From assembly GCA_030654015.1 (NCBI GenBank), contig JAURYI010000124.1:1-45919 (forward strand): 45,919 nucleotides of DNA, read 5' to 3'. Under the pieces are notes generated by a model, which made no database searches, was not told the origin of the DNA, and saw nothing but the letters and a program-made list of their open reading frames with translations. The translations under genes were made by a program, and so were the position numbers. Positions 14,239 to 33,241 of this stretch are shown here, in pieces. The first letter of the stretch is position 1; each line of letters begins with the position of its first letter. Source of the stretch: Methylococcales bacterium (GTDB lineage: Bacteria > Pseudomonadota > Gammaproteobacteria > Methylococcales > Methylomonadaceae).

Positions 14239-14315
14239 GCGCCCGTAGCTCAGCTGGATAGAGCGCAGCCCTCCGGAGGCTGAGGTCAGAGGTTCGAATC
14301 CGCTCGGGCGCGCCA
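14239..14315 (+). tRNA. tRNA-Arg (anticodon CCG)
   Basis: A 77-base cloverleaf with encoded CCA (14313-14315). Acceptor arm GCGCCCG/CGGGCGC, D-stem GCTC/GAGC, anticodon stem CAGCC/GGCTG with loop CTCCGGA, so the anticodon is CCG and reads CGG (Arg). The T-loop is TTCGAAT. The T-stem (AGAGG against CCGCT) has one A-G mismatch at its third pair. It resembles E. coli argX. No second copy of its 3' end was seen nearby, so there is no sign of an integrated element. Confidence 0.95.
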
Positions 14316-20963: not shown

Positions 20964-21049
20964 CATGGTCGTTGGTCGGGGTGTCGCTCTGCGCACCTCG
21001 ACACTACATTGCATTGCCTCATTCCCATCGCACACCAGAGAATATCATC

Positions 21050-22903
21050 ATGGATTTTGCCTTAGAAAAATTTGAATGTCTCGCCTATTCACGCCAATAT
21101 GAGCTTGCCATACAGGAATTACTGAAATTACTGCAAATGCTGGACAGTGGTTATGGCTCATTCAACGAAAATTTCAGCTCCAGTACCATACAGGCAATGC
21201 AGGTTAATTCTGATTTAGTCGATTTGCATATTCTGAGCCGTATTGCAGCCGCAACCACCGCGTTATTCTCCGACCCCGAATTTCATTTTTCTGAAACAGG
21301 CTTTATTCAGGTTATTCAATATCACCGCTGGCTGTCGCTGATATTTGCCGTCAGTCCATTTCGTAATGCCGATCACATCATTCGTTCTTTTAATCAGAAC
21401 GGACATTTCAGTACACCGCTACAGGTTGATAACAAAAATCTGGCAAAATTTTGTCTGCTGTATTCGCTGGAATCGGAAATTGATATTGATTTGGATGCTT
21501 TTTGGCAGATTAATACCCTACTAGCAGCCAATTTGTATCTTGTCTTAATGTCGTCACGGTTTATTTCCAGCCCCGAAGCTCATGCGAAACGTGAAACCTT
21601 ATTACGCTGGCTACCCGATCGGTTAGCGGAAATCGGCACGATAGATCAACTGCCTGTGGGTATTTTTCACGATGTGTATATGCACTGTAGTTATTCAGGT
21701 TATGCAGGCAAACACAACATCAAAGCGGCGATTAATCAGCTATTACGCAATAAACTGGAAGAACTCGGTTTTAAAGACCGAATAGCCCCTGCACGGTTGC
21801 CCGCTACAGGCAAACCCGTGATGCTGGTAGTACCCGAATGGTTTTATTCCAGTCATGCCGTGTATCGGGTATTAGCCAAAGCCATACGCAAAGCCCGCGA
21901 TCAGTTTCATCTGATTTGTCTGGGCGACCCAGCAACCACAGATAACACAGGGAGTGCGGTATTTGATGAATTTATTGAACGTACCGACGGTGGCGACATC
22001 CCCGCTTTATGTCAGCAAATACTGAATATCGCCGAAGAACGGGATGTGCAGGTACTGTATATGCCCAGCGTCGGTATGACTTTGTACACCATGTTTTTGG
22101 CTAATCTGCGCTTTGCTCCGCTGCAAATCACCACACTGGGACATTCTGCCAGTACCTTCGCGCCGCAAATGGATTATTTTGTTATTGATGAAGATTTTGT
22201 CGGTGATGAAGCGTGCTTTTCTGAAAAAGTCATTAAAACCCCCAACGATGCGTTTCCGTTTACACCGTTTGCGCAAAATATGGACGACATCCCGCAAGCT
22301 CCATTACGCAACGCCCCTGCCGTGGTAGAAATTGCCATGGTGGCATCCACCATGAAACTCAACCCCGATTTTTTATACACCTGTCGGCTCATCGCCGAAC
22401 AATCACCCACCCCCGTGCATTTTCAATTTTTTATCGGCGCGGCACGCGGCTTAGTCGGTTTACAAGTTGCGCAAGTGGTCGAACGTTATCTGGGACAATG
22501 GGCAAGTGTGCATTTACAACAAGGTTATGGCGACTACCTGCAAAAATTATCCGCCTGTGATTTGTACATCAATCCGTTTCCCTTCGGCAACATGAACGGG
22601 ATTGTTGATTTACTGTCCGTGGGCTTGGTGGGCATCTGTAAATCAGGTAATGAGCCACATGAACACATCGACCAAGGTTTGTTTGAACGACTGGGAATGC
22701 CCAGCTGGTTAGTCACTACAAGCAATGAAGAGTATATTGCCGCTGCACTGCGGCTGATTAATAACCATGAAGAACGTCTGGCGATACGCTCCAACCTTGA
22801 TGGACGTGCTGCTATCAATCGGTTATTCGAAGGGCGTGAAGAAATATTCGGGCAGATGGTACAAGATGTGCATCAGGCACTGATTGCACAGCAAGCGGAT
22901 TGA
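21050..22903 (+). CDS. HMW1C/NGT-type cytoplasmic N-glycosyltransferase (GT41)
   Basis: The 617-residue protein resembles HMW1C and Actinobacillus pleuropneumoniae NGT along its whole length (both about 620). These enzymes put glucose or galactose from UDP-sugar onto asparagine in Asn-X-Ser/Thr of adhesins in the cytoplasm. Shared landmarks are the N-terminal helical domain (DLHILSRIAAATTALFSDPE), HDVYMHCSY (about 204), the SSHAVYR segment, YMPSVGM, ASTMKLNP (about 432, with the catalytic-site Lys), NPFPFGNMNGIVD (about 508) and EPHEHIDQGLFERLGMP. The ATG at 21050 is preferred over an upstream GTG-type frame opening. It follows degP by 86 bases. No adhesin substrate is visible here. Confidence 0.92.
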   Translation: MDFALEKFECLAYSRQYELAIQELLKLLQMLDSGYGSFNENFSSSTIQAMQVNSDLVDLHILSRIAAATTALFSDPEFHFSETGFIQVIQYHRWLSLIFAVSPFRNADHIIRSFNQNGHFSTPLQVDNKNLAKFCLLYSLESEIDIDLDAFWQINTLLAANLYLVLMSSRFISSPEAHAKRETLLRWLPDRLAEIGTIDQLPVGIFHDVYMHCSYSGYAGKHNIKAAINQLLRNKLEELGFKDRIAPARLPATGKPVMLVVPEWFYSSHAVYRVLAKAIRKARDQFHLICLGDPATTDNTGSAVFDEFIERTDGGDIPALCQQILNIAEERDVQVLYMPSVGMTLYTMFLANLRFAPLQITTLGHSASTFAPQMDYFVIDEDFVGDEACFSEKVIKTPNDAFPFTPFAQNMDDIPQAPLRNAPAVVEIAMVASTMKLNPDFLYTCRLIAEQSPTPVHFQFFIGAARGLVGLQVAQVVERYLGQWASVHLQQGYGDYLQKLSACDLYINPFPFGNMNGIVDLLSVGLVGICKSGNEPHEHIDQGLFERLGMPSWLVTTSNEEYIAAALRLINNHEERLAIRSNLDGRAAINRLFEGREEIFGQMVQDVHQALIAQQAD

Positions 22904-25030: not shown

Positions 25031-26116
25031 ATGAACGACAAAACAAAATTACGCTGGGGTATTTTAGGGGCGGCTCGCATCAACGAGCGTTTAATGCCTG
25101 CCATTGTTGGTGCATCGAATGCAGAATTAGTGGCTATTGCCAGTCGTCGCCCCGATGCGGCAGCGCAAACGCTGGAAAAATATGCACCCGAACAACAAAA
25201 CGTCCGCATCTATCATGATCGTGAAGTCTTGCTCAACGACCCCGATATAGACGCTGTCTATATTCCGCTTGCCAATTATGAACACGCTGAATGGGCATTA
25301 CGCGCCATTAAACAGGGCAAACACGTCTTGTGTGAAAAGCCCATGGCGTTGAGCGTAGCGGCTATCGAGTCTATCTATATTGCCGCACAGGAACATAACG
25401 TCAAGGTCATGGAAGGCTTTATGTACCGTTTTCACCCGCAACACGCGCGAGTTCAGGAACTGATAGCCTCAGGGCTTATCGGTGAAATTCGCTCCGTCCG
25501 CAGCAGTTTTTCTTTCATGATGCGCCCTGCCAGAATGTATCGCCTAGCCGAAAGCGTCGAAAACGGTGGCGGTGCGATGTGGGACATCGGTTGCTACGCC
25601 ATTCATTGCGCCCGCTTATTTTTCAATCAAGAACCTGTTGCCGTCACCGCATTTTCTAAACACGTTGCCAGCGGTGCGGATATAACCACCAGCGGTATTA
25701 TTGATTTTGGTGAGGGAAAATTCGCCCATTTTGATTTTAGTTTTGAACGCGCCCGCCGCTGTGAATATGAAATTATTGGCACAAAAGGCGGTATCAAATG
25801 CCACAACGTGTGGGCGATGCCGACCGATACGCCTATCATTTCATGGTGGACAGAAGACGGACAACAAGAACAGGAACAACTCGCGCCAGCCAACCATTTT
25901 CAGCTGGAAATCGAGCATTTCAGTCAATGCGTGCTAGACGGTCAAGATCCGCTGTTATCGCTGGAAGATGCAAAAAATAACTGTCAACTTATCGTTGCCG
26001 CCCTGCAATCGGTGCAAGAACAACAAGCTGTTAAGGGTAACGCACTCAGAATGTGGACATTTAAAAGAAAGCGCAGTCGTGAAGTACAAAATGTAAGTGA
26101 TTCGGACGATTACTAG
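25031..26116 (+). CDS. Gfo/Idh/MocA family NAD(P)-dependent oxidoreductase
   Basis: A 361-residue dehydrogenase. RWGILGAARINERLMPAI is the Rossmann nucleotide-binding segment, AVYIPLANYEHAEWALRAI and VLCEKPMAL carry the EKP motif with the catalytic-site Lys, and GGGAMWDIGCYAIH belongs to the C-terminal substrate domain of the family. Members act on sugars, inositols or dihydrodiols; the substrate cannot be given. A C-terminal tail (KRKRSREVQNVSDSDD) follows the domain. AAGG lies upstream of the ATG. It appears to be a single-gene unit, with no linked sugar-metabolism genes. Confidence 0.9.
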   Translation: MNDKTKLRWGILGAARINERLMPAIVGASNAELVAIASRRPDAAAQTLEKYAPEQQNVRIYHDREVLLNDPDIDAVYIPLANYEHAEWALRAIKQGKHVLCEKPMALSVAAIESIYIAAQEHNVKVMEGFMYRFHPQHARVQELIASGLIGEIRSVRSSFSFMMRPARMYRLAESVENGGGAMWDIGCYAIHCARLFFNQEPVAVTAFSKHVASGADITTSGIIDFGEGKFAHFDFSFERARRCEYEIIGTKGGIKCHNVWAMPTDTPIISWWTEDGQQEQEQLAPANHFQLEIEHFSQCVLDGQDPLLSLEDAKNNCQLIVAALQSVQEQQAVKGNALRMWTFKRKRSREVQNVSDSDDY

Positions 26117-26186
26117 AGTTTGGTATAAAATAGAAATGGTAATTCATTATAAGAAAAATTTCCCCTGTCGCTAAGAGAACAACCCA

Positions 26187-26747
26187 ATGAACATGAAAAA
26201 AAACGAAACTGTCGAAGAATCCACACCTCATGCACAAAACGCCGTCGTGCAAACGGCAGATACTGATAACAGCCAGAATGTCGGCAAAATCCGCGATATT
26301 ATTTTTGGCGGGCAAATGCGTGAATACGACAATCGTTTTACGTCACTGGAAGAGCGTTTCAATAAAGAAAGTCTGCGCTTACGTCAGGATATGGAACAAC
26401 GTATGAATTCGCTGGAAACCTTGGTACAAGGCGAGTTTGAAGCCTTAACCGATAAATTGCGTCTGGAGAAAAAAGAACGCAATGATAGCCTGCTTTCCAT
26501 AGAATCGACGCTGAAAAAAGCCAATGAATTACTCAGTCAGCGGTTAGGCGATTTGGAAAATAAAAGCCTTGATGAAATGCGTAAACTGCGTAATCAAGAG
26601 CATGAAGATATTAAAAATCTGCGTAGTAGTCTGCAACAGTTACGCGAAGAAACTAACGCGCAATTTGAGAAGGAACTGGACATATTGCGTAAAACTAAAG
26701 TGGATCGCTCCAGCGTTGCCGCGTTATTTGCAGGCGGCAACATTTAA
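26187..26747 (+). CDS. coiled-coil protein, first gene of a GTPase signalling cluster
   Basis: A 186-residue soluble protein. A disordered acidic N-terminus (1-32) leads to the conserved-looking IRDIIFGGQMREYDNRF, then a nearly unbroken coiled coil (about 50-170) rich in Glu, Lys, Leu and Arg heptads (EERFNKESLRLRQDMEQR and on), ending SSVAALFAGGNI. No enzyme motif. The next gene begins 51 bases later on the same strand. I infer a scaffold or tether for the GTPase or OmpA-like partner encoded downstream. I do not know a named family for it. Confidence 0.8.
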   Translation: MNMKKNETVEESTPHAQNAVVQTADTDNSQNVGKIRDIIFGGQMREYDNRFTSLEERFNKESLRLRQDMEQRMNSLETLVQGEFEALTDKLRLEKKERNDSLLSIESTLKKANELLSQRLGDLENKSLDEMRKLRNQEHEDIKNLRSSLQQLREETNAQFEKELDILRKTKVDRSSVAALFAGGNI

Positions 26748-26798
26748 CAAGATGCGTTTTAACCCAGTGAACAATGCTGATTGTCTATTGTTGCCATA

Positions 26799-28541
26799 AT
26801 GGCAGCTCATTTGACTGAAAAAACTGCCGATACTATCGAGCAGGATAATGCCGCGTTCGATATGCTTATCGAACAAAAACGGTATCAGATGTTAAAGACT
26901 CTATTATTGAAAGAGGAAGAGCAACGCCTCGGACAACTAGAGTCTTATTTTAACAATCCTGATGCACACGCCGAAAAAATCGCTCAGGTGTTACCGCAAG
27001 CACTGCAACAAACCGATACAACTGCATTGCATGGTGCGCTAAGTGACACCGTGCAGAGCTGTATTATTGAGTCCATTCAGGAAAATCCTGTCTTGTATGC
27101 CGATGCGTTATACCCTGTTATTTTCCCCGCCATTAAAAAGTCGATTGCCGAAGCCTTGAAACAAATGATGCAATCGTTAAATCAGGCGATTGAGCAGGGT
27201 TTTTCGTTACATCGGTTTGCGTGGCATTATGAAGCGTGGCGTAGCGGTCTGCCGTATCGGGAAGTGGTGTTACGCCATACCTTGGCGTATCGCGTGGAAC
27301 AAGCGTTTTTAATTCACCGTGAAACAGGTTTATTACTGCACCATGTCTCGCTAGAAGATGTCGATGCACAGCGCGACGGCGATGCAGTGTCGGCGATGCT
27401 CACTGCCATTCAGGATTTTACGAAAGATTCGTTTGCGGTTAATAGCGATGATTATCTGGACATGATTGAAATCGGTGAATACACAGTATTTTTAAGTCGT
27501 GGTTCGTATGCAGTCTTGGCGTGTGTCATACAGGGCATCGCGCCGTATTCCTTGCGGGAAAAATTTGACGTTATTCTGCATGATATTCATCAGCAATATG
27601 GCGCACTGCTGAAAAATTTTGCGGGCGATAGCGCGCCTTTAGCGGTCACCGAACCTGACTTGCAGGCGTGTTTATTGGCGGAACGCAAGCAACTTGACAA
27701 AACTGAGTTTTCACCAAAATATATCCTCGTACCGCTCATGGTGTTGTGCGCTATGTTGGCTTATTGGGGCTATGACAACTGGCAATTTGAACAGCGGGCG
27801 GCGGATTATGTGCGGCTGTTACAGCACAATCAAAGTATCGTCATCACGCAACAAAATTATCACAGCGGGCAGTTGCTGATTAATGGTTTATACGACCCGC
27901 TTTCGGAACACCCTGATACGCTGATTGCACAATCTCGTTTGCAAGCAGATGAAATACAAAGTCATTGGCAAGCCTATCAATCATTAGCTCCTGTGTTTGT
28001 AGAACAGCGGTTAAAACAACTGCTGCAACCACCGCCAACCGTCAGTCTCACCCTTGAAAACAACCGTTTGGTGATTACAGGGATTGCCGATGACGCGTGG
28101 ATTAATAAACTGGCTATCATTACGCCTGCTATTGCAGGTGTCAGTGGTGTTGATAGCGATAAACTGCAAAGTTATCAGCAACAGATTGAAATATTAAATA
28201 CGCAAATTAAAAATATCGCGGTGTATTTTATGTCATCCAGTACCGAATTAACGGAAGATCAAGCTCAGAAACTGGCGGATCTGGTAGCGGCATTGCAACA
28301 AATACAGGCACTCAGCCATTCAATCAATAAAACGCCACATCTGTTGATTACAGGGCAAGCAGACGTTACTGGCACACTTGAAAAAAATAGCGTATTGGCA
28401 CAAAAACGCGCGGCTATTGTTTTGGAATATTTGCAACAACACGGCGTATTTATTGATACCAACGTTAAAGCGCAACTGGGGCAATTGAACAAAGAAGGCA
28501 CAACACAGCGCAAAGTCAGTTTTGCCGTGCTGTTTAATTAA
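26799..28541 (+). CDS. inner-membrane OmpA-C family protein with large cytoplasmic domain
   Basis: 580 residues. About 1-300 are cytoplasmic, with no signal peptide. This part contains LYPVIFPAIKKSIAEALKQM and a segment from YRVEQAFLIHRETGLLL to the FAGD near 285 that has the alternating pattern of longin/roadblock-like domains (inference). One membrane helix follows (YILVPLMVLCAMLAYWGYDNW, about 307-325). The periplasmic part has a BON-like stretch (VSLTLENNRLVITGIADD) and an OmpA-C domain (about 474-580) with ITGQADVTGT and NSVLAQKRA, keeping the Asp and Arg that bind diaminopimelate of peptidoglycan. The ATG at 26799 is preferred over TTG 26781; neither has a good ribosome site. It ends seven bases before the GTPase gene. 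Confidence 0.85.
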   Translation: MAAHLTEKTADTIEQDNAAFDMLIEQKRYQMLKTLLLKEEEQRLGQLESYFNNPDAHAEKIAQVLPQALQQTDTTALHGALSDTVQSCIIESIQENPVLYADALYPVIFPAIKKSIAEALKQMMQSLNQAIEQGFSLHRFAWHYEAWRSGLPYREVVLRHTLAYRVEQAFLIHRETGLLLHHVSLEDVDAQRDGDAVSAMLTAIQDFTKDSFAVNSDDYLDMIEIGEYTVFLSRGSYAVLACVIQGIAPYSLREKFDVILHDIHQQYGALLKNFAGDSAPLAVTEPDLQACLLAERKQLDKTEFSPKYILVPLMVLCAMLAYWGYDNWQFEQRAADYVRLLQHNQSIVITQQNYHSGQLLINGLYDPLSEHPDTLIAQSRLQADEIQSHWQAYQSLAPVFVEQRLKQLLQPPPTVSLTLENNRLVITGIADDAWINKLAIITPAIAGVSGVDSDKLQSYQQQIEILNTQIKNIAVYFMSSSTELTEDQAQKLADLVAALQQIQALSHSINKTPHLLITGQADVTGTLEKNSVLAQKRAAIVLEYLQQHGVFIDTNVKAQLGQLNKEGTTQRKVSFAVLFN

Positions 28542-28548
28542 GGAAGCC

Positions 28549-29052
28549 ATGAAAATACTGCAAAAAAAAATCTGTCTGTTAGGCGATTTTGGTGTCGGCA
28601 AAACCAGTTTAGTAGCACGGTTTGTCAACAATGAATATTCAGAAAAATACCTGACTACGGTCGGTGTCAAAATGGACACCAAATTAATCGCGGTGAACGA
28701 TGAATTAAGCATCAAGCTGATTATCTGGGATATTGCAGGGGAAAATAGTCTGAAAAAAATTTCCCAAACCTATTTACGCGGCGCGGCGGGATTTTTGTTG
28801 GTCATTGACGGTACGCGCATGAATACCCTCGACGGTGCATTAGATATGAAGCGCGGTATTCGTGAATTACTCGGTGATATACCGTTTGTGGTATTGCTCA
28901 ATAAATATGATTTAACCACCCAATGGGAACTGACAGCCGCACACATCGAACGCTTAAACACACCACAGGAACAGCTGTTTTTCACCAGTGCCAAAAGTGG
29001 CGAACAAGTGGAAGCGGCGTTTAACGCGCTAAGTTATGTTTTAACGTTATGA
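28549..29052 (+). CDS. Ras/Rab-like small GTPase
   Basis: A 167-residue single-domain small GTPase. G1 is GDFGVGKTS (12-20), Thr37 in YLTTVGVKM is the switch I threonine, G3 is WDIAGEN (60-66), G4 NKYD (118-121), G5 TSAK (146-149). G3 has Glu65 where Ras has catalytic Gln61, and Phe14 takes the place of Ras Gly12, so self-hydrolysis is probably slow and a partner may be needed. No C-terminal lipid cysteine. AAGGA precedes the ATG at 28549. The stop overlaps the kinase start (ATGA). It likely switches between the coiled-coil/OmpA-like proteins and the kinase; the exact role is unknown. Confidence 0.9.
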   Translation: MKILQKKICLLGDFGVGKTSLVARFVNNEYSEKYLTTVGVKMDTKLIAVNDELSIKLIIWDIAGENSLKKISQTYLRGAAGFLLVIDGTRMNTLDGALDMKRGIRELLGDIPFVVLLNKYDLTTQWELTAAHIERLNTPQEQLFFTSAKSGEQVEAAFNALSYVLTL

Positions 29053-30575
29053 ACGCATTACCCGATGCTATACAACAATATTTACACAGCATCTGGACAG
29101 AAAACGATAAATTCGCCTACTTAAATTTTGACGCACACGGATTGATTAAACATTGGCATTATCATATTGATTATTTTGGTCTGACCGATTTACACAGCGG
29201 TGACCCTGCGGCAGAACAATTAATTTTTTTAGAAGGTTTACTTCCCTATCAGGACAAAGACCCGATTATTATCGAGTCGGTTAATTTTGCCAACGGTGTT
29301 GCCGCTGATATTCATATTCTGCCTGCTGACAATGATATTTATGTGTTATTTTTTGATGTCAGCGAACGGGTTACACAACGGCAAGCAGTGCAACAGGAAC
29401 GGCATACCATCGACTTGTTGTATCAACAACAGCATAAAAATATCGAGCTGTTAAAACAGACGTATCAAGAACTGGACGTTAAAAAACAGCAGGCAGAAAC
29501 GGCTAATAAAGAAAAAAGTCAATTATTGTCCTACATCACCCACGATTTACGCACCCCGCTAACCGCCATATTAGGCTTTGCGCAATTTTTAGAAGCCGAT
29601 ATTTTTGGCGAACTCACCGACAAACAGCGTGATTGCATCGTAAAAATGTTAGCCGCAGGCAAGCACATGGATAACTTAATCAACGACATACTGGACGCGG
29701 CACAGCTTGAAGCGGGCAATATTGCATTACAGCCAGAACCGTTAGCCGTGCGTGTCGCGCTTGCAGACTGTATCGCATGGTTACAACCCATTGCCGAACA
29801 ACAGCACATCACACTGATTAATCGTGTGCCGAATGAGGTAAGCATTCAGGCGGATGCGAAGCGATTTAAACAGGTGATGATTAATCTGCTGCATAACGCA
29901 ATTAAATACAATCGGGAACACGGTTGTATTGTCATTACTGGCAAGGTATTGGCAACATCGTTGCGTATTCGTATTAAAGATACTGGTATCGGTATTGCCG
30001 CACAGCAACTGGACACTATATTTCAACCGTTTACCCGCGTGCTTGATAAAGATAAGGCGAAAAAAATTCAGGGTCATGGTGTGGGCTTAAGCGAATGCAA
30101 GCACCTGATTGGGCTAATGCAAGGCTCGTTAAGTGTGCGCAGTGAATTGAGTGTAGGCAGTGTGTTTTATATCGAGCTGCCTTTAGCGATTGCTTACCAA
30201 GATAAGCAGGAAGAACGTCACCATCAACTGGTGTATTGGTATCAGGATCTGAGTAATATGGAATTATTCGGCAACCTGCTCACCGCCTGTAACAATGTTC
30301 AGCTGTTCGGCTGTAACCATGCAGAACAAGCAGTGCAACTGTGTACACAACACGCGGCGACGGTGTTATTAATCGACATCAACAGCGAACAGCTGGCGGC
30401 GGACATTGCGCAGGTGCAGGTGTTACAACGCCAGCTGAATCAACTGCGTATGATTGCTGTGGTTGCAAAACAGACCCCCGCTGTTGCCATGCAACAGATT
30501 TTACAACAAACGCAGATTGATGATTATCTGACCTGCCCGTTTGATTTTAATCAGGTGCTGGATATGCTTGAATAG
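29049..30575 (+). CDS. soluble histidine kinase with PAS-like input and degenerate receiver
   Basis: 508 residues without membrane segments. Residues 1-110 look like a PAS domain, 115-155 are coiled coil, then HisKA with His165 in SYITHDLRTPLTAILGF. The ATP-binding domain has NLLHNAIKYN, KDTGIGIA and GHGVGLSE. The last 130 residues look like a receiver fold: VLLIDINSE keeps an Asp at the phosphorylation place, but the conserved Lys (CPF instead of KPF) and the acidic pocket are missing, so it is probably a pseudo-receiver. The start overlaps the GTPase stop, implying tight coupling. It could be activated by the GTPase and pass phosphate to the Hpt or REC proteins encoded opposite. Confidence 0.88.
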   Translation: MNALPDAIQQYLHSIWTENDKFAYLNFDAHGLIKHWHYHIDYFGLTDLHSGDPAAEQLIFLEGLLPYQDKDPIIIESVNFANGVAADIHILPADNDIYVLFFDVSERVTQRQAVQQERHTIDLLYQQQHKNIELLKQTYQELDVKKQQAETANKEKSQLLSYITHDLRTPLTAILGFAQFLEADIFGELTDKQRDCIVKMLAAGKHMDNLINDILDAAQLEAGNIALQPEPLAVRVALADCIAWLQPIAEQQHITLINRVPNEVSIQADAKRFKQVMINLLHNAIKYNREHGCIVITGKVLATSLRIRIKDTGIGIAAQQLDTIFQPFTRVLDKDKAKKIQGHGVGLSECKHLIGLMQGSLSVRSELSVGSVFYIELPLAIAYQDKQEERHHQLVYWYQDLSNMELFGNLLTACNNVQLFGCNHAEQAVQLCTQHAATVLLIDINSEQLAADIAQVQVLQRQLNQLRMIAVVAKQTPAVAMQQILQQTQIDDYLTCPFDFNQVLDMLE

Positions 30576-30577
30576 TG

Positions 30578-32266
30578 CTAAAGACCTGCAACAGTGACCT
30601 GATTACGACCATTATTTTTTGACGCATACAACGCCTTATCAGCAGCATCAGCTAATAATTGCGGATCATCAAAAACGGGATAGCTGGCAATGCCGCAACT
30701 GAACGTTACAGAAAAACTGCCACCCTGATAAAAATGCAGTACCTTTTCAAAATCACTGCGCAATTTTTCACATATTGTTGCCGCATTTTCAACGGACGTA
30801 TGAGGAAATACCACCACAAATTCCTCACCGCCATACCGTCCGACCAAATCGGTTTTTCGTACACGGTCTACTAAAAAGCGCGACATATTTTTTAACACCT
30901 GATCGCCGATACCATGCCCATAAGTATCATTGACCTGTTTAAAAAAATCGACATCAAACATTGCCACACTGACAGAGGATTCTTCCCGCCCTGCTCTGGA
31001 CACCTCGTTTCTAATCTGTTCTTTAATATGGCGATGATTATAAAGACCTGTTAAACCGTCTTTGGACATTAAATTGCGCAATTTCCGAAACCGCATTGCT
31101 CGGTAAGCAACAATCCGCACCAGTGTTTCCGCGCGTATCGGCTTAATCAAAAAATCATCACCGCCCTGCAATAACGCCTGTACCTGTAGCTCACTGGAAT
31201 GTTCGGCAGACAGATAAACGATAGGTACAGCCGCATACGCATCAATTTGGCGAATCACGCTGGCAAGCTCATTGCCCCGATAACCCGGCATATATAAATC
31301 CATCAACACTAAATCAGTATTGCCGTTTTCCATCTGTTTTAATACTTGCGTCGGTTCATTACAGATAACGGTCAAAAACCCTGCATTTTCCAGAATCAGT
31401 GCATGGTGTCTGGCAACTTCTTTGTCATCATCAACGATAAGCACCTGATAAGGTTCTTCTGCTTGTCGATTGACCAGTTTATCCAGCCACTCTATTAAAT
31501 TGCCTATATCCAATGGCTTGGCAAGATAGGCACTGCCGCCTGCTTTGACCGCCGCCAGTCGTGCTTCGACATCCACGCGACAGGAAATAAAAATAATCGG
31601 AACATTATTCGGAAGAATGCCCTTGTAATCACCGCGAATTTTTTTAATCGCCTCAGCACCCGCCTTATTACCTTCTGGCAGAATAATATCCACGATTAAC
31701 GCGCAAGGCATTTCTTGTAAAAGACACTGTTTAATAGCAAGGCTATCGTGCAGCACGTTCACCCGATAACCGAATGCCTGTATCTGCTCGGCAATGCTAT
31801 GCGCCAATACTGTGTCATCCTCAATCAGCAAAATAAGTTTATTATCGTCGGTTTGTTCTTCCTGCTGAATGCTGTCAACGATAGCGCATAAGTCTTCATC
31901 CACGACCAAATAAGGCTCTTCCGAATGGGTAATAATGGTATCAAGCAAGTTTTCAAGGTATAAAAAAGCCGTTTTTATTGACTGCTGCTGAACGACAGAA
32001 GGCGGGGCTTCCGACTGCAAAAAAGGGCTGATTTTTTCTTCCAGACGCTTTGCTGATTGCGATAAGCGATTAAAACTAAACGTTGCACTAGAGCCTGCTA
32101 AGGTATGAATACTGATATAAAACTGCTGTAAATCCTCAGGATTCCACTGCTGTACCAGCCGTTGCTCATAGTTTTTCAACTGCGCAAGACGCTCGACCAG
32201 ACTATGAACAAACTCCTGTTGCAACGCTCTCAGCTTTTCAAGAAACTCGGCACGTTTATTGGTCAT
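30578..32266 (-). CDS. Hpt-REC-REC-GGDEF diguanylate cyclase
   Basis: 562 residues from the ATG at 32266. Order: Hpt domain with His54 (SIHTLAGSSATF); receiver 1 (Asp193, Lys250); receiver 2 (Asp323, Lys375); GGDEF domain with GGEEF at 479-483 and RKTD (470-473), the RxxD product-inhibition site. FDVDFFKQVNDTYGH is the usual GTP-site sequence. It should make c-di-GMP under phosphorelay control and can itself be a phosphate intermediate. It overlaps the preceding CheY-like gene by 11 bases and ends two bases from the kinase stop, tail to tail. An upstream TTG at 32326 lies inside the CheY gene and is unlikely. Confidence 0.93.
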   Translation of the reverse strand: MTNKRAEFLEKLRALQQEFVHSLVERLAQLKNYEQRLVQQWNPEDLQQFYISIHTLAGSSATFSFNRLSQSAKRLEEKISPFLQSEAPPSVVQQQSIKTAFLYLENLLDTIITHSEEPYLVVDEDLCAIVDSIQQEEQTDDNKLILLIEDDTVLAHSIAEQIQAFGYRVNVLHDSLAIKQCLLQEMPCALIVDIILPEGNKAGAEAIKKIRGDYKGILPNNVPIIFISCRVDVEARLAAVKAGGSAYLAKPLDIGNLIEWLDKLVNRQAEEPYQVLIVDDDKEVARHHALILENAGFLTVICNEPTQVLKQMENGNTDLVLMDLYMPGYRGNELASVIRQIDAYAAVPIVYLSAEHSSELQVQALLQGGDDFLIKPIRAETLVRIVAYRAMRFRKLRNLMSKDGLTGLYNHRHIKEQIRNEVSRAGREESSVSVAMFDVDFFKQVNDTYGHGIGDQVLKNMSRFLVDRVRKTDLVGRYGGEEFVVVFPHTSVENAATICEKLRSDFEKVLHFYQGGSFSVTFSCGIASYPVFDDPQLLADAADKALYASKNNGRNQVTVAGL

Positions 32267-32648
32267 ATTGATTCCAAAGCGTTTGAAGATGGCTGGGAAG
32301 TTGCAGCGGATTAAAAGGCTTGGCAATAATATCCAGTGCGCCAGCCTGCTTGAATGTGCTGATAAGTTCAGGTGTCGAACGACCTGTCATAAAAATCACG
32401 GGGGTATTTTTACACGCCTCAAGTGCCTGAATTCTTTTTAGCGTCTCCAGACCATCCATCTCAGGCATAATGACATCAAGCAAAATCATATCGGGCGTAA
32501 AGTGCCGCAATAATGTCAATGCTTCCGCACCCGACGCGCACAGCCTGACCGTGTAGTCGCCGATAGTTTCCAACGCCATTGCCACCATAGAGCGCAAGTG
32601 TGCATCATCATCAATATAAAGCAGGGTATTCAAGGTTTTATCTGGCAT
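32256..32648 (-). CDS. single-domain response regulator (CheY-like)
   Basis: A 130-residue stand-alone receiver. LYIDDDAHL holds the acidic pocket, Asp58 in LLDVIMPEMDG is the phosphorylation site, Thr88 (FMTGR) and Lys110 (AKPF) complete it. No output domain, so it works as a phosphate shuttle or by binding a partner. It is the first gene of a minus-strand pair with the Hpt-REC-REC-GGDEF gene (11-base overlap). The ATG at 32648 is preferred over a TTG at 32705. It probably receives phosphate from the opposite-strand kinase and hands it to the Hpt; that route is inferred from gene position. Confidence 0.9.
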   Translation of the reverse strand: MPDKTLNTLLYIDDDAHLRSMVAMALETIGDYTVRLCASGAEALTLLRHFTPDMILLDVIMPEMDGLETLKRIQALEACKNTPVIFMTGRSTPELISTFKQAGALDIIAKPFNPLQLPSHLQTLWNQYDQ

Positions 32649-32815
32649 TTTACACGTTAAACAAGTTGAAAACAGGGAACGGTACACACTATGGTCAACC
32701 AGCAATACTAAACGAACCCGTTACATGGAACAACTTTTGATTTTTTCAAACGGATTAATCCAGCTGTATTTTGCTACACTATTGAGCAACACCCGACCGA
32801 CAAAGGCTCATGATT

Positions 32816-33241
32816 ATGACACTCATCGAAACCTCATTAGCGATTGCCCTGCGTGCTTACACAGGCAAAACCGACAAGGCAGGACAGGACTATATTCACC
32901 ATCCGCTGAGACTAATGGCAAAAATGACCACTGACTATGAAATGTCAGTGGCTTTACTGCATGATGTGATTGAAGATTCCGACATTACCGCCGCCGACCT
33001 GCGCGCAGAAGGCATTCCTGATGACGTAGTGGAAGCGGTGTTATGTTTAACTAAACAAGCGGGCGAAAATTACCAGACGTTTGTGCTAAGAGCCAAACAA
33101 AATCCCCTCGCCCGCAAAGTTAAAATAGCCGATATTGAAGATAACATTAATGTCTTGCGCCTAGTGACCCTAAGCGAAAAAGATTTAGCGCGTATAGCCA
33201 AATATCATGCCGCATGGCGGGTATTAACTGCGCTTGACTGA
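32816..33241 (+). CDS. HD-domain protein related to RelA/SpoT (p)ppGpp hydrolase domain
   Basis: A 141-residue stand-alone HD domain. DYIHHPLRLM, ALLHDVIEDSD and KIADIEDN are the hydrolase motifs of small alarmone hydrolases. The first metal-binding His of the usual AHxGQ is a Tyr here (AYTGKTDKAG), so metal binding may differ. No synthetase or ACT/TGS domain. AAAGG fits best with the second ATG at 32816 (nine-base spacing); an ATG at 32810 would add two residues. It is divergent from the CheY-like gene; a link to that cluster is not shown. Confidence 0.8.
   Translation: MTLIETSLAIALRAYTGKTDKAGQDYIHHPLRLMAKMTTDYEMSVALLHDVIEDSDITAADLRAEGIPDDVVEAVLCLTKQAGENYQTFVLRAKQNPLARKVKIADIEDNINVLRLVTLSEKDLARIAKYHAAWRVLTALD

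Follow-up and report, generated by a model that had tools for sequence, protein, structure and literature searches.

In Group 1 Rup loci, as described in the Rup sections of Wuichet and Søgaard-Andersen (2014, PMC4316618), the gene for the small GTPase Rup stands with genes for a coiled-coil protein, an output enzyme and a protein whose uncharacterised domain, with no Pfam match reported, is often followed by a transmembrane (TM) segment and an OmpA domain. According to the same sections, the output module carries an invariant Gln in its N-terminus and the GTPase lacks the Gln of its G3 motif; typical outputs are kinases and cyclase/phosphodiesterase fusions for cyclic di-GMP (c-di-GMP). In the open-licence literature we found only this 2014 prediction, with an unknown GTPase-activating protein and two uncharacterised proteins, and no report of experiments with Group 1 Rup. 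Here we analyse a window of 45,919 nucleotides from a methane-oxidising Methylococcales bacterium (assembly GCA_030654015.1, contig JAURYI010000124.1), corresponding to contig C14 of G000, a genome of 3.66 Mb. It holds four plus-strand genes, encoding a coiled-coil protein, an OmpA protein, a GTPase and a histidine kinase, followed by two minus-strand genes for an Hpt-REC-REC-GGDEF protein and a CheY-like receiver (REC). A first-pass annotation of this DNA knew of no described circuit of such composition, a statement that has to give way to the 2014 description: by gene content and motifs, the four plus-strand genes are assigned to the Group 1 Rup systems predicted there. We put a probability of about three in four on the reading that they form a signalling pathway in which the OmpA protein sets the state of Rup and Rup-GTP switches the soluble kinase.

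A Rup-type GTPase within a conserved four-gene unit

The GTPase is a single-domain protein of 167 aa, within the limit of less than 240 aa for Group 1 Rup. Its G3 motif, WDIAGEN, is missing the catalytic Gln, and Gln stands at this position in none of 54 aligned Rup sequences, window included, whereas the G1, G4 and G5 motifs are intact in the alignment. Among the best 60 of 357 PDB matches, 58 bear the name Rab or Sec4, one of these Rabs being from Thorarchaeota, and the other two are labelled simply 'GTP-binding protein'; Rab35 and Rab14 rank at the top. A 99% identical GTPase is found in a Methylococcales metagenome-assembled genome (L019). The GTPase is not coupled to an MglB homologue, as the three Robl_LC7 hits of the genome lie on contigs C102 and C53 and not on C14. 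On those contigs, Robl_LC7 genes and Ras-family hits are separated by ~1 kb (C102) and ~9 kb (C53), and the two on C102 possibly form an MglAB-type locus. The coiled-coil protein has the character of the cytoplasmic neighbour of Group 1 Rup, with a 19-residue hydropathy of at most 0.34.

We then followed the genes through other genomes, using the cytoplasmic domain of the OmpA protein, here called D, as a guide. The OmpA protein itself occurs in 8 of 151 genomes, its own included. The close relatives L028-L031 hold matches to all four plus-strand genes, and in these stretches of 13-18 kb each no further open reading frame (ORF) resembles the window at E<=1e-15. The conserved unit is thus made up of the four plus-strand genes and not of six; six genes as a family-wide conserved unit were rejected and are retained as a local block. 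A protein search of plasmids matched four records, and the three examined, from Rhizobium, Mesorhizobium and Nostoc, all carry the coiled coil, D-OmpA protein, GTPase and output enzyme; the deposited Mesorhizobium annotation reads 'OmpA family protein', 'Rab family GTPase' and 'adenylate/guanylate cyclase'. The fourth record, a second Rhizobium plasmid, lies outside the locus set, and the Nostoc plasmid is the one sample of Cyanobacteria.

At E<=0.001, the D alignment matched 50 of 398 genomes in the phylum of the window, 13 of 296 in that of Roseivirga and 12 of 251 in that of Dehalococcoidia. The window's phylum has 49 positive genomes besides G000, and 23 of them supplied 23 loci to our sample; to these were added 12 loci from 12 genomes of the Dehalococcoidia phylum, and 13 loci from 12 of the 13 positive genomes of Roseivirga's phylum, the 13th being the genome of the Roseivirga locus L024. 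Altogether 61 loci were examined, 60 of them with D (L033 is without). A Rup-type GTPase lies within 6 kb of D in 55 of the 60, on the opposite strand in four (L057, L058, L060 and L064), and a coiled-coil homologue is near D in 57. In one locus (L032) a coiled-coil match (E 1.1e-08) falls inside the D-OmpA frame; because of this apparent fusion, the coiled coil and D-OmpA are suggested to work together. The first-pass annotation had named co-occurrence of GTPase, OmpA-C protein and kinase as its check. GTPase, OmpA-type protein and coiled coil do stay together, in Methylococcales, on rhizobial plasmids, on the Nostoc plasmid and in the phyla of Roseivirga and Dehalococcoidia, so that for these three the refuting outcome named in the annotation does not arise; the kinase is present in 28 of the 60 loci, with another output enzyme in many.

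A PAS-fronted kinase exchanged for other output enzymes

The N-terminus of the kinase was modelled with confidence (predicted local distance difference test, pLDDT, 85.2) and adopts a PAS fold, matching the PAS domain of ThkA in a VIA comparison (Z 9.9, 2.1 Å, 83 residues), with no Pfam PAS hit in this region. A Gln begins the helix that leaves the PAS fold, and it is present in the window and in 50 of 52 aligned effector rows, the other two being gapped. In line with the first-pass annotation, the kinase has no membrane segment, as no 19-residue stretch exceeds a hydropathy of 1.3. At its C-terminus we detected a weak receiver (20.8 bits, below cut-off) that the annotation did not list and that is probably degenerate.

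The output gene differs between loci. Among the 60, it encodes a histidine kinase in 28, a cyclase in 13, a GGDEF protein in four, an HD-GYP protein in three and a PAS protein of 587-598 aa in three; one is cut off and eight have no labelled output. The one GGDEF output scanned (L110) also has EAL, and the two PAS proteins scanned are both sigma-54 activators. This tally was made by hand and counts loci, not independent events; it includes near relatives (e.g. L025, L026, L125 and L143) and, twice, two loci of one genome (L023/L141 and L057/L060). The PAS/Gln module also fronts adenylate cyclases, GGDEF-EAL proteins, HD-GYP proteins and sigma-54 activators. Cyclases of the cyclic AMP type, HD-GYP proteins and sigma-54 activators do not appear as outputs in the sections on Rup of PMC4316618.

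Several points count against the pathway as we read it. Five of the 60 D loci have no recognised Rup: near D in L062, L063, L066 and L124 there is no ORF with GTPase motifs, and in L134 the D gene stands at the very start of a contig. The Gln column was chosen after alignment, in helices rich in Gln, and 14 of the 52 effector rows were added by their position beside Rup, and the result repeats a published observation and is no blind test. Among the loci just named, L062, L063 and L066 all belong to Roseivirga's phylum; D and the coiled coil are retained in them, together with unassigned convergent ORFs of 164-189 and 450-454 aa.

The REC/GGDEF pair and the six-gene block

The first-pass annotation had joined all six genes into one unit leading to c-di-GMP. 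In four same-genus genomes (G001, G004, G005 and G007; loci L199, L200, L201 and L203), the oxidoreductase and HD genes that flank the block in the window adjoin, with none of the six genes between them; the HD gene of G006 has a different neighbour, as does that of G003 on its one visible side, the other being a contig end. Because all six are absent between the same neighbours in four genomes, they are gained or lost as one block in this genus, which keeps a functional link among the six possible and does not show one. No GC shift marks the block, and its two edges share no exact direct repeat of 9-14 bases; the only tRNA of the window is at 14239-14315.

Beyond the genus, the two minus-strand genes part from the rest. 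They do not stand beside the four-gene cassette in L028-L031. Of 99 relatives besides G000 and G002, 10 have a homologue of the GGDEF protein (E<=1e-60, 36-45% identity), none of the ten with a match to the OmpA protein, and a 40-44% identical REC adjoins the GGDEF homologue in 5 of 12 loci. Because the adjacent REC recurs in these loci without the cassette, the REC/GGDEF pair is a module of its own. Adjoining REC and GGDEF-homologue genes in relatives without the OmpA protein are seen in L180 and L182-L185, and in L184 and L185 a kinase-like ORF lies just upstream of the pair. A second version of the GGDEF end and the REC and HD genes, 92-98% identical, is present on contig C117 of G002 (L205), probably because the bin (contamination 6%) includes DNA of a second strain.

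Whether REC and the Hpt-REC-REC-GGDEF protein are dedicated partners of the kinase, with c-di-GMP as the output, has to be judged on this mixed record. The whole-block absence speaks for such a circuit, as do the convergent and almost touching kinase and GGDEF genes, the detection of Hpt, receivers and GGDEF in the expected partners, the degenerate receiver of the kinase, which makes an outside receiver plausible, and the GGDEF-EAL and HD-GYP proteins among Rup-linked effectors elsewhere. It is opposed by the absence of the pair beside the same kinase in L028-L031 and by the ten relatives that have a GGDEF homologue, in part with its own adjacent REC, and no OmpA protein; moreover, one block may hold two unrelated modules. 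On balance we regard the six-gene circuit as a tentative idea with odds somewhat under even, and the case for c-di-GMP as the output of this kinase is weak.

The cytoplasmic D domain resembles longin and roadblock folds

We consider it likely that the D domain belongs to the longin/roadblock superfamily. Four lines of evidence, each weak, agree on this. First, an AlphaFold2 model built from six sequences has the order strand-strand-helix-three strands-helix-helix (EEHEEEHH), which fits longin topology. Second, the best 50 rows of a Foldseek search of the model against PDB comprise Ragulator/Rag, AP, Mon1-Ccz1, TRAPP and folliculin complexes, Ego3 and other EGO/SEAC or GATOR1 entries, doublet-microtubule/dynein LC7 entries, an MglA-MglB entry and a Streptomyces roadblock; going by their names, we take all 50 to come from roadblock/longin chains or their complexes. 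The best 50 rows of VIA are led by Sec22b (Z 13.1, 2.7 Å, 121 aligned) and include the longin SNAREs Ykt6 and Vamp7, TRAPP, Fuzzy, adaptor/coat subunits including AP, the signal recognition particle receptor, Lst4, C9orf72-SMCR8 and Mon1-Ccz1. 'Longin' is named in six of these 50 rows; the others are presumably longin-type as well, and no row is described as PAS. Third, a profile of 56 D domains (113 D hits represent 79 distinct sequences, of which 56 were used in alignments and profile) had, among 177,635 PDB sequences at E<=10, a Roadblock/LC7 protein (0.083) and TRAPP BET5 (0.5) as its sole hits. The core-only profile gave five, with Roadblock/LC7 first (0.032) and BET5 second (0.24); three of the five are of roadblock/BET5 kinds (0.032, 0.24 and 1.5) and two are other bacterial proteins (1.2 each). 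Fourth, in Pfam the best E-values for the D core belong to Intu_longin_1 and Fuz_longin_1 (0.001 and 0.0075; three of 56 members each).

Other observations weigh against this placement. The mean pLDDT of the D model is 51.8, with values of 48-68 over residues 161-270, and the search tool warns that models of such low confidence yield unreliable structural matches; only four Foldseek matches reached E<=0.001, and target TM-scores range from 0.18 to 0.54. No D-profile match to a PDB longin or roadblock is significant by convention. In Pfam, Acyl_transf_1 likewise matches three of the 56 cores (0.036), and the window's own D core matches neither Intu_longin_1 nor Fuz_longin_1. Across 39 D-bearing genomes, two longin models gave no match above cut-off: PF19031 had six matches at E<=5, of which one, the best, lies in a D gene, and PF19036 had 13, two of them in D genes. 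With hhalign, bacterial roadblocks were the best of nine profiles against D, and even this match was weak (score 21.6, P 0.012, probability 3.6%), was exceeded by one of 100 column-shuffled profiles and failed in global alignment.

Some assignments were discarded along the way. D is not a Pfam roadblock, as Robl_LC7 is absent from all 24 families matched by the D core and from the 25 of 36 families shown for the longer D region. An early ten-sequence D profile retrieved just two saposin-type sequences from PDB (E 1.4 and 1.5). The correlation of D and Rup distances (0.88, or 0.64 for distant pairs; 35 loci, with L029, L142 and L143 excluded) was not used, as genome relatedness confounds it.

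D might also be a different alpha/beta domain, such as a plain PAS/GAF-like or profilin-like one, acting as a scaffold only while the GTPase regulator is encoded elsewhere. The low pLDDT and the lack of an above-cut-off Pfam longin match would suit this, and longin, roadblock, profilin and PAS-like folds are indeed described as similar to each other in parts of PMC3521125 and PMC10933270. Yet the best 50 VIA rows are, as far as classed, longin-type with none called PAS, and the profile searches rank a roadblock and TRAPP BET5 first among 177,635 sequences; we therefore judge another fold to be unlikely.

Going one step further, D could be a true longin related to the eukaryotic Rab regulators TRAPP, Mon1-Ccz1 and Fuzzy-Inturned. 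In Group 1 Rup systems, a Rab-like GTPase would then be paired with a longin forming part of a wall-anchored, membrane-spanning protein, and this protein would gate exchangeable output enzymes with a PAS front. This possibility falls just short of an even chance. According to the relevant parts of the literature, longins derived from roadblock-like domains (PMC3521125), and roadblock and longin proteins are believed to have arisen in archaea (PMC10933270). If true, a membrane-anchored longin-Rab regulatory pair would exist in several bacterial phyla, which would bear on the origin of the pairing between Rab-type GTPases and longin regulators.

One candidate membrane segment and a variable outer part

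Hydropathy marks one candidate membrane helix in the OmpA protein, with a 19-residue peak of 1.59 at residues 304-322; the relatives L028-L031 exceed 1.7 at that site. The part beyond the membrane varies among D proteins, being OmpA, SH3b or nothing after the TM segment. OmpA is the label in 33 of 60 D proteins and was additionally found by Pfam in L066. A 'BON-like' region of the window protein was read from its sequence, and among the D proteins scanned Pfam detects BON in L027 and L061; L119 and L122, of one family in the window's phylum, have long outer parts that resemble BON repeats, with no Pfam match. In L130 and L136, from the Dehalococcoidia phylum, a Thr/Pro-rich linker leads to a bacterial SH3 domain (above the Pfam cut-off in L130, below it in L136), and in the Dehalococcoidia locus L023 the D protein stops after the TM segment. 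In the part of PMC3971608 consulted, two of three Chloroflexi draft genomes are without peptidoglycan synthesis.

The Roseivirga D (L024) has no TM segment. Directly upstream of its coiled coil, at L024:5133-5762, lies a separate protein with a TM segment and PG_binding_1, as if the wall anchor had been split off. In the Nostoc D protein (L027:7284-8200), the D domain is preceded by repeated 'AIAPTI..AI..QI' units, which are a longer version of the conserved 'DALYPVI..AI' motif.

Proposed signalling pathway

We propose an inner-membrane location for the OmpA protein, whose periplasmic OmpA part would contact peptidoglycan. On the cytoplasmic side the longin/roadblock-like D domain, aided by the coiled-coil protein, would bind Rup and set its nucleotide state, and Rup-GTP would dock on the N-terminal PAS/coiled-coil region of the soluble kinase, thereby switching it. 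Because Rup has no catalytic Gln of its own, the conserved effector Gln may assist GTP hydrolysis, as suggested in PMC4316618. In this genus the kinase may also hand phosphate on to the REC and Hpt-REC-REC-GGDEF proteins encoded next to it and thereby tune c-di-GMP, although such a phosphorelay to the GGDEF protein is conjecture. The wall signal and the direction of regulation are inferred steps.

A membrane and wall protein that passes its signal via a GTPase to a soluble kinase is the best reading of the locus. It comes close to the hypothesis put forward in the Rup sections of PMC4316618 and agrees with the flow from wall to GTPase to kinase in the first-pass annotation. That annotation had also made the OmpA protein the entry point of the signal, which fits, and had missed the possible GTPase-regulator domain in its cytoplasmic part. 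In the proposed pathway D is a candidate for the missing Rup regulator, and the PAS module with its conserved Gln is the effector. The reverse order, with the kinase upstream and Rup as an output acting on the envelope through the OmpA protein, has some precedent in the GTPase posited as output of conservons, which have no response regulator (PMC4316618, in part), and could explain why D and Rup are constant and the enzyme is not, but it is quite improbable given that the fourth gene swaps among kinases, cyclases, GGDEF-EAL proteins, HD-GYP proteins and sigma-54 activators, which are typical outputs, and that the effector N-termini align around one conserved Gln.

Gene layout of the block

The order and strands of the six genes are as first annotated, and so are their junctions: 7 bases separate the OmpA and GTPase genes (28542-28548), the GTPase and kinase genes share an ATGA overlap (29049-29052), the convergent kinase and GGDEF genes are 2 bases apart (30576-30577) and the two minus-strand genes overlap at 32256-32266. 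Pfam scores are 34.4 bits for OmpA (E 2.8e-08), 69.0 for HisKA, 86.4 for HATPase_c, 148.5 for GGDEF and 31.9 for Hpt, and two receivers are detected in the Hpt-REC-REC-GGDEF protein. Upstream of the block, at 20972-22903, a 643-aa protein has HMW1C-type N-terminal domains.

Table 1. Features of the six-gene block, in window coordinates
Feature	Position	Strand	Basis or remark
Coiled-coil gene, 186 aa	26187-26747	+	coil read from sequence alone
OmpA protein gene	26799-28541	+	ATG start; alternative open TTG start at 26781
OmpA protein, parts in order: D domain, TM, BON-like region, OmpA-C	26799-28541	+	
OmpA protein, D domain: longin/roadblock-like core (probable)	about 27288-27623	+	profile and model evidence
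OmpA protein, single candidate TM	about 27708-27764	+	hydropathy
Rup-type (Rab-like) small GTPase, 167 aa	28549-29052	+	Pfam Ras 104.9 bits
Soluble histidine kinase: PAS fold (residues about 1-107), conserved-Gln helix, HisKA, HATPase_c, probably degenerate receiver	29049-30575	+	
Hpt-REC-REC-GGDEF diguanylate cyclase	30578-32266	-	Pfam; GGEEF read in translation
Single-domain CheY-like REC	32256-32648	-	Pfam
Six-gene block absent in four same-genus genomes	26117-32809		between oxidoreductase 25031-26116 and HD gene 32810-33241

Comparison with known systems

Actinobacterial conservons (CvnA kinase, CvnB roadblock, CvnC, CvnD GTPase) likewise co-encode a kinase, a small GTPase and a roadblock/longin-type partner, the last being a probable match in the case of D. 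They differ in that CvnD is MglA-type and CvnB a Pfam roadblock, and contig C14 has no Robl_LC7 hit of the CvnB type. Moreover, the conservon kinase is membrane-spanning (PMC4316618, in part), whereas here it is the neighbour of the GTPase that spans the membrane, with an OmpA domain. MglA/MglB, the polarity switch of Myxococcus, combines a small GTPase with a regulator of the roadblock superfamily, as the locus here probably does; unlike it, the present system has Rup features, a membrane-anchored, longin-like partner and an enzyme as output. With the eukaryotic and Asgard Rabs and their longin guanine nucleotide exchange factors (TRAPP, Mon1-Ccz1, Fuzzy-Inturned), the locus has in common a Rab-like GTPase and a longin-like partner. 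It differs from these in being bacterial and in having a partner that spans the membrane and carries a wall-binding domain; the sequence link does not reach family cut-offs, and an exchange-factor role of D is putative.

The closest relatives are the Group 1 Rup systems themselves, which share the same four genes, the missing G3 Gln, the uncharacterised domain followed by TM and OmpA, and the N-terminal Gln of the output. Unlike the loci described, the cassette is here flanked by a REC/Hpt-REC-REC-GGDEF pair that is gained or lost with it. Relative to the Rup sections of the 2014 study, what is new is the probable placement of D in the longin/roadblock fold, the wide range of outputs, extending to adenylate cyclases, HD-GYP proteins and sigma-54 activators, and the range of outer domains, which includes ones other than OmpA.

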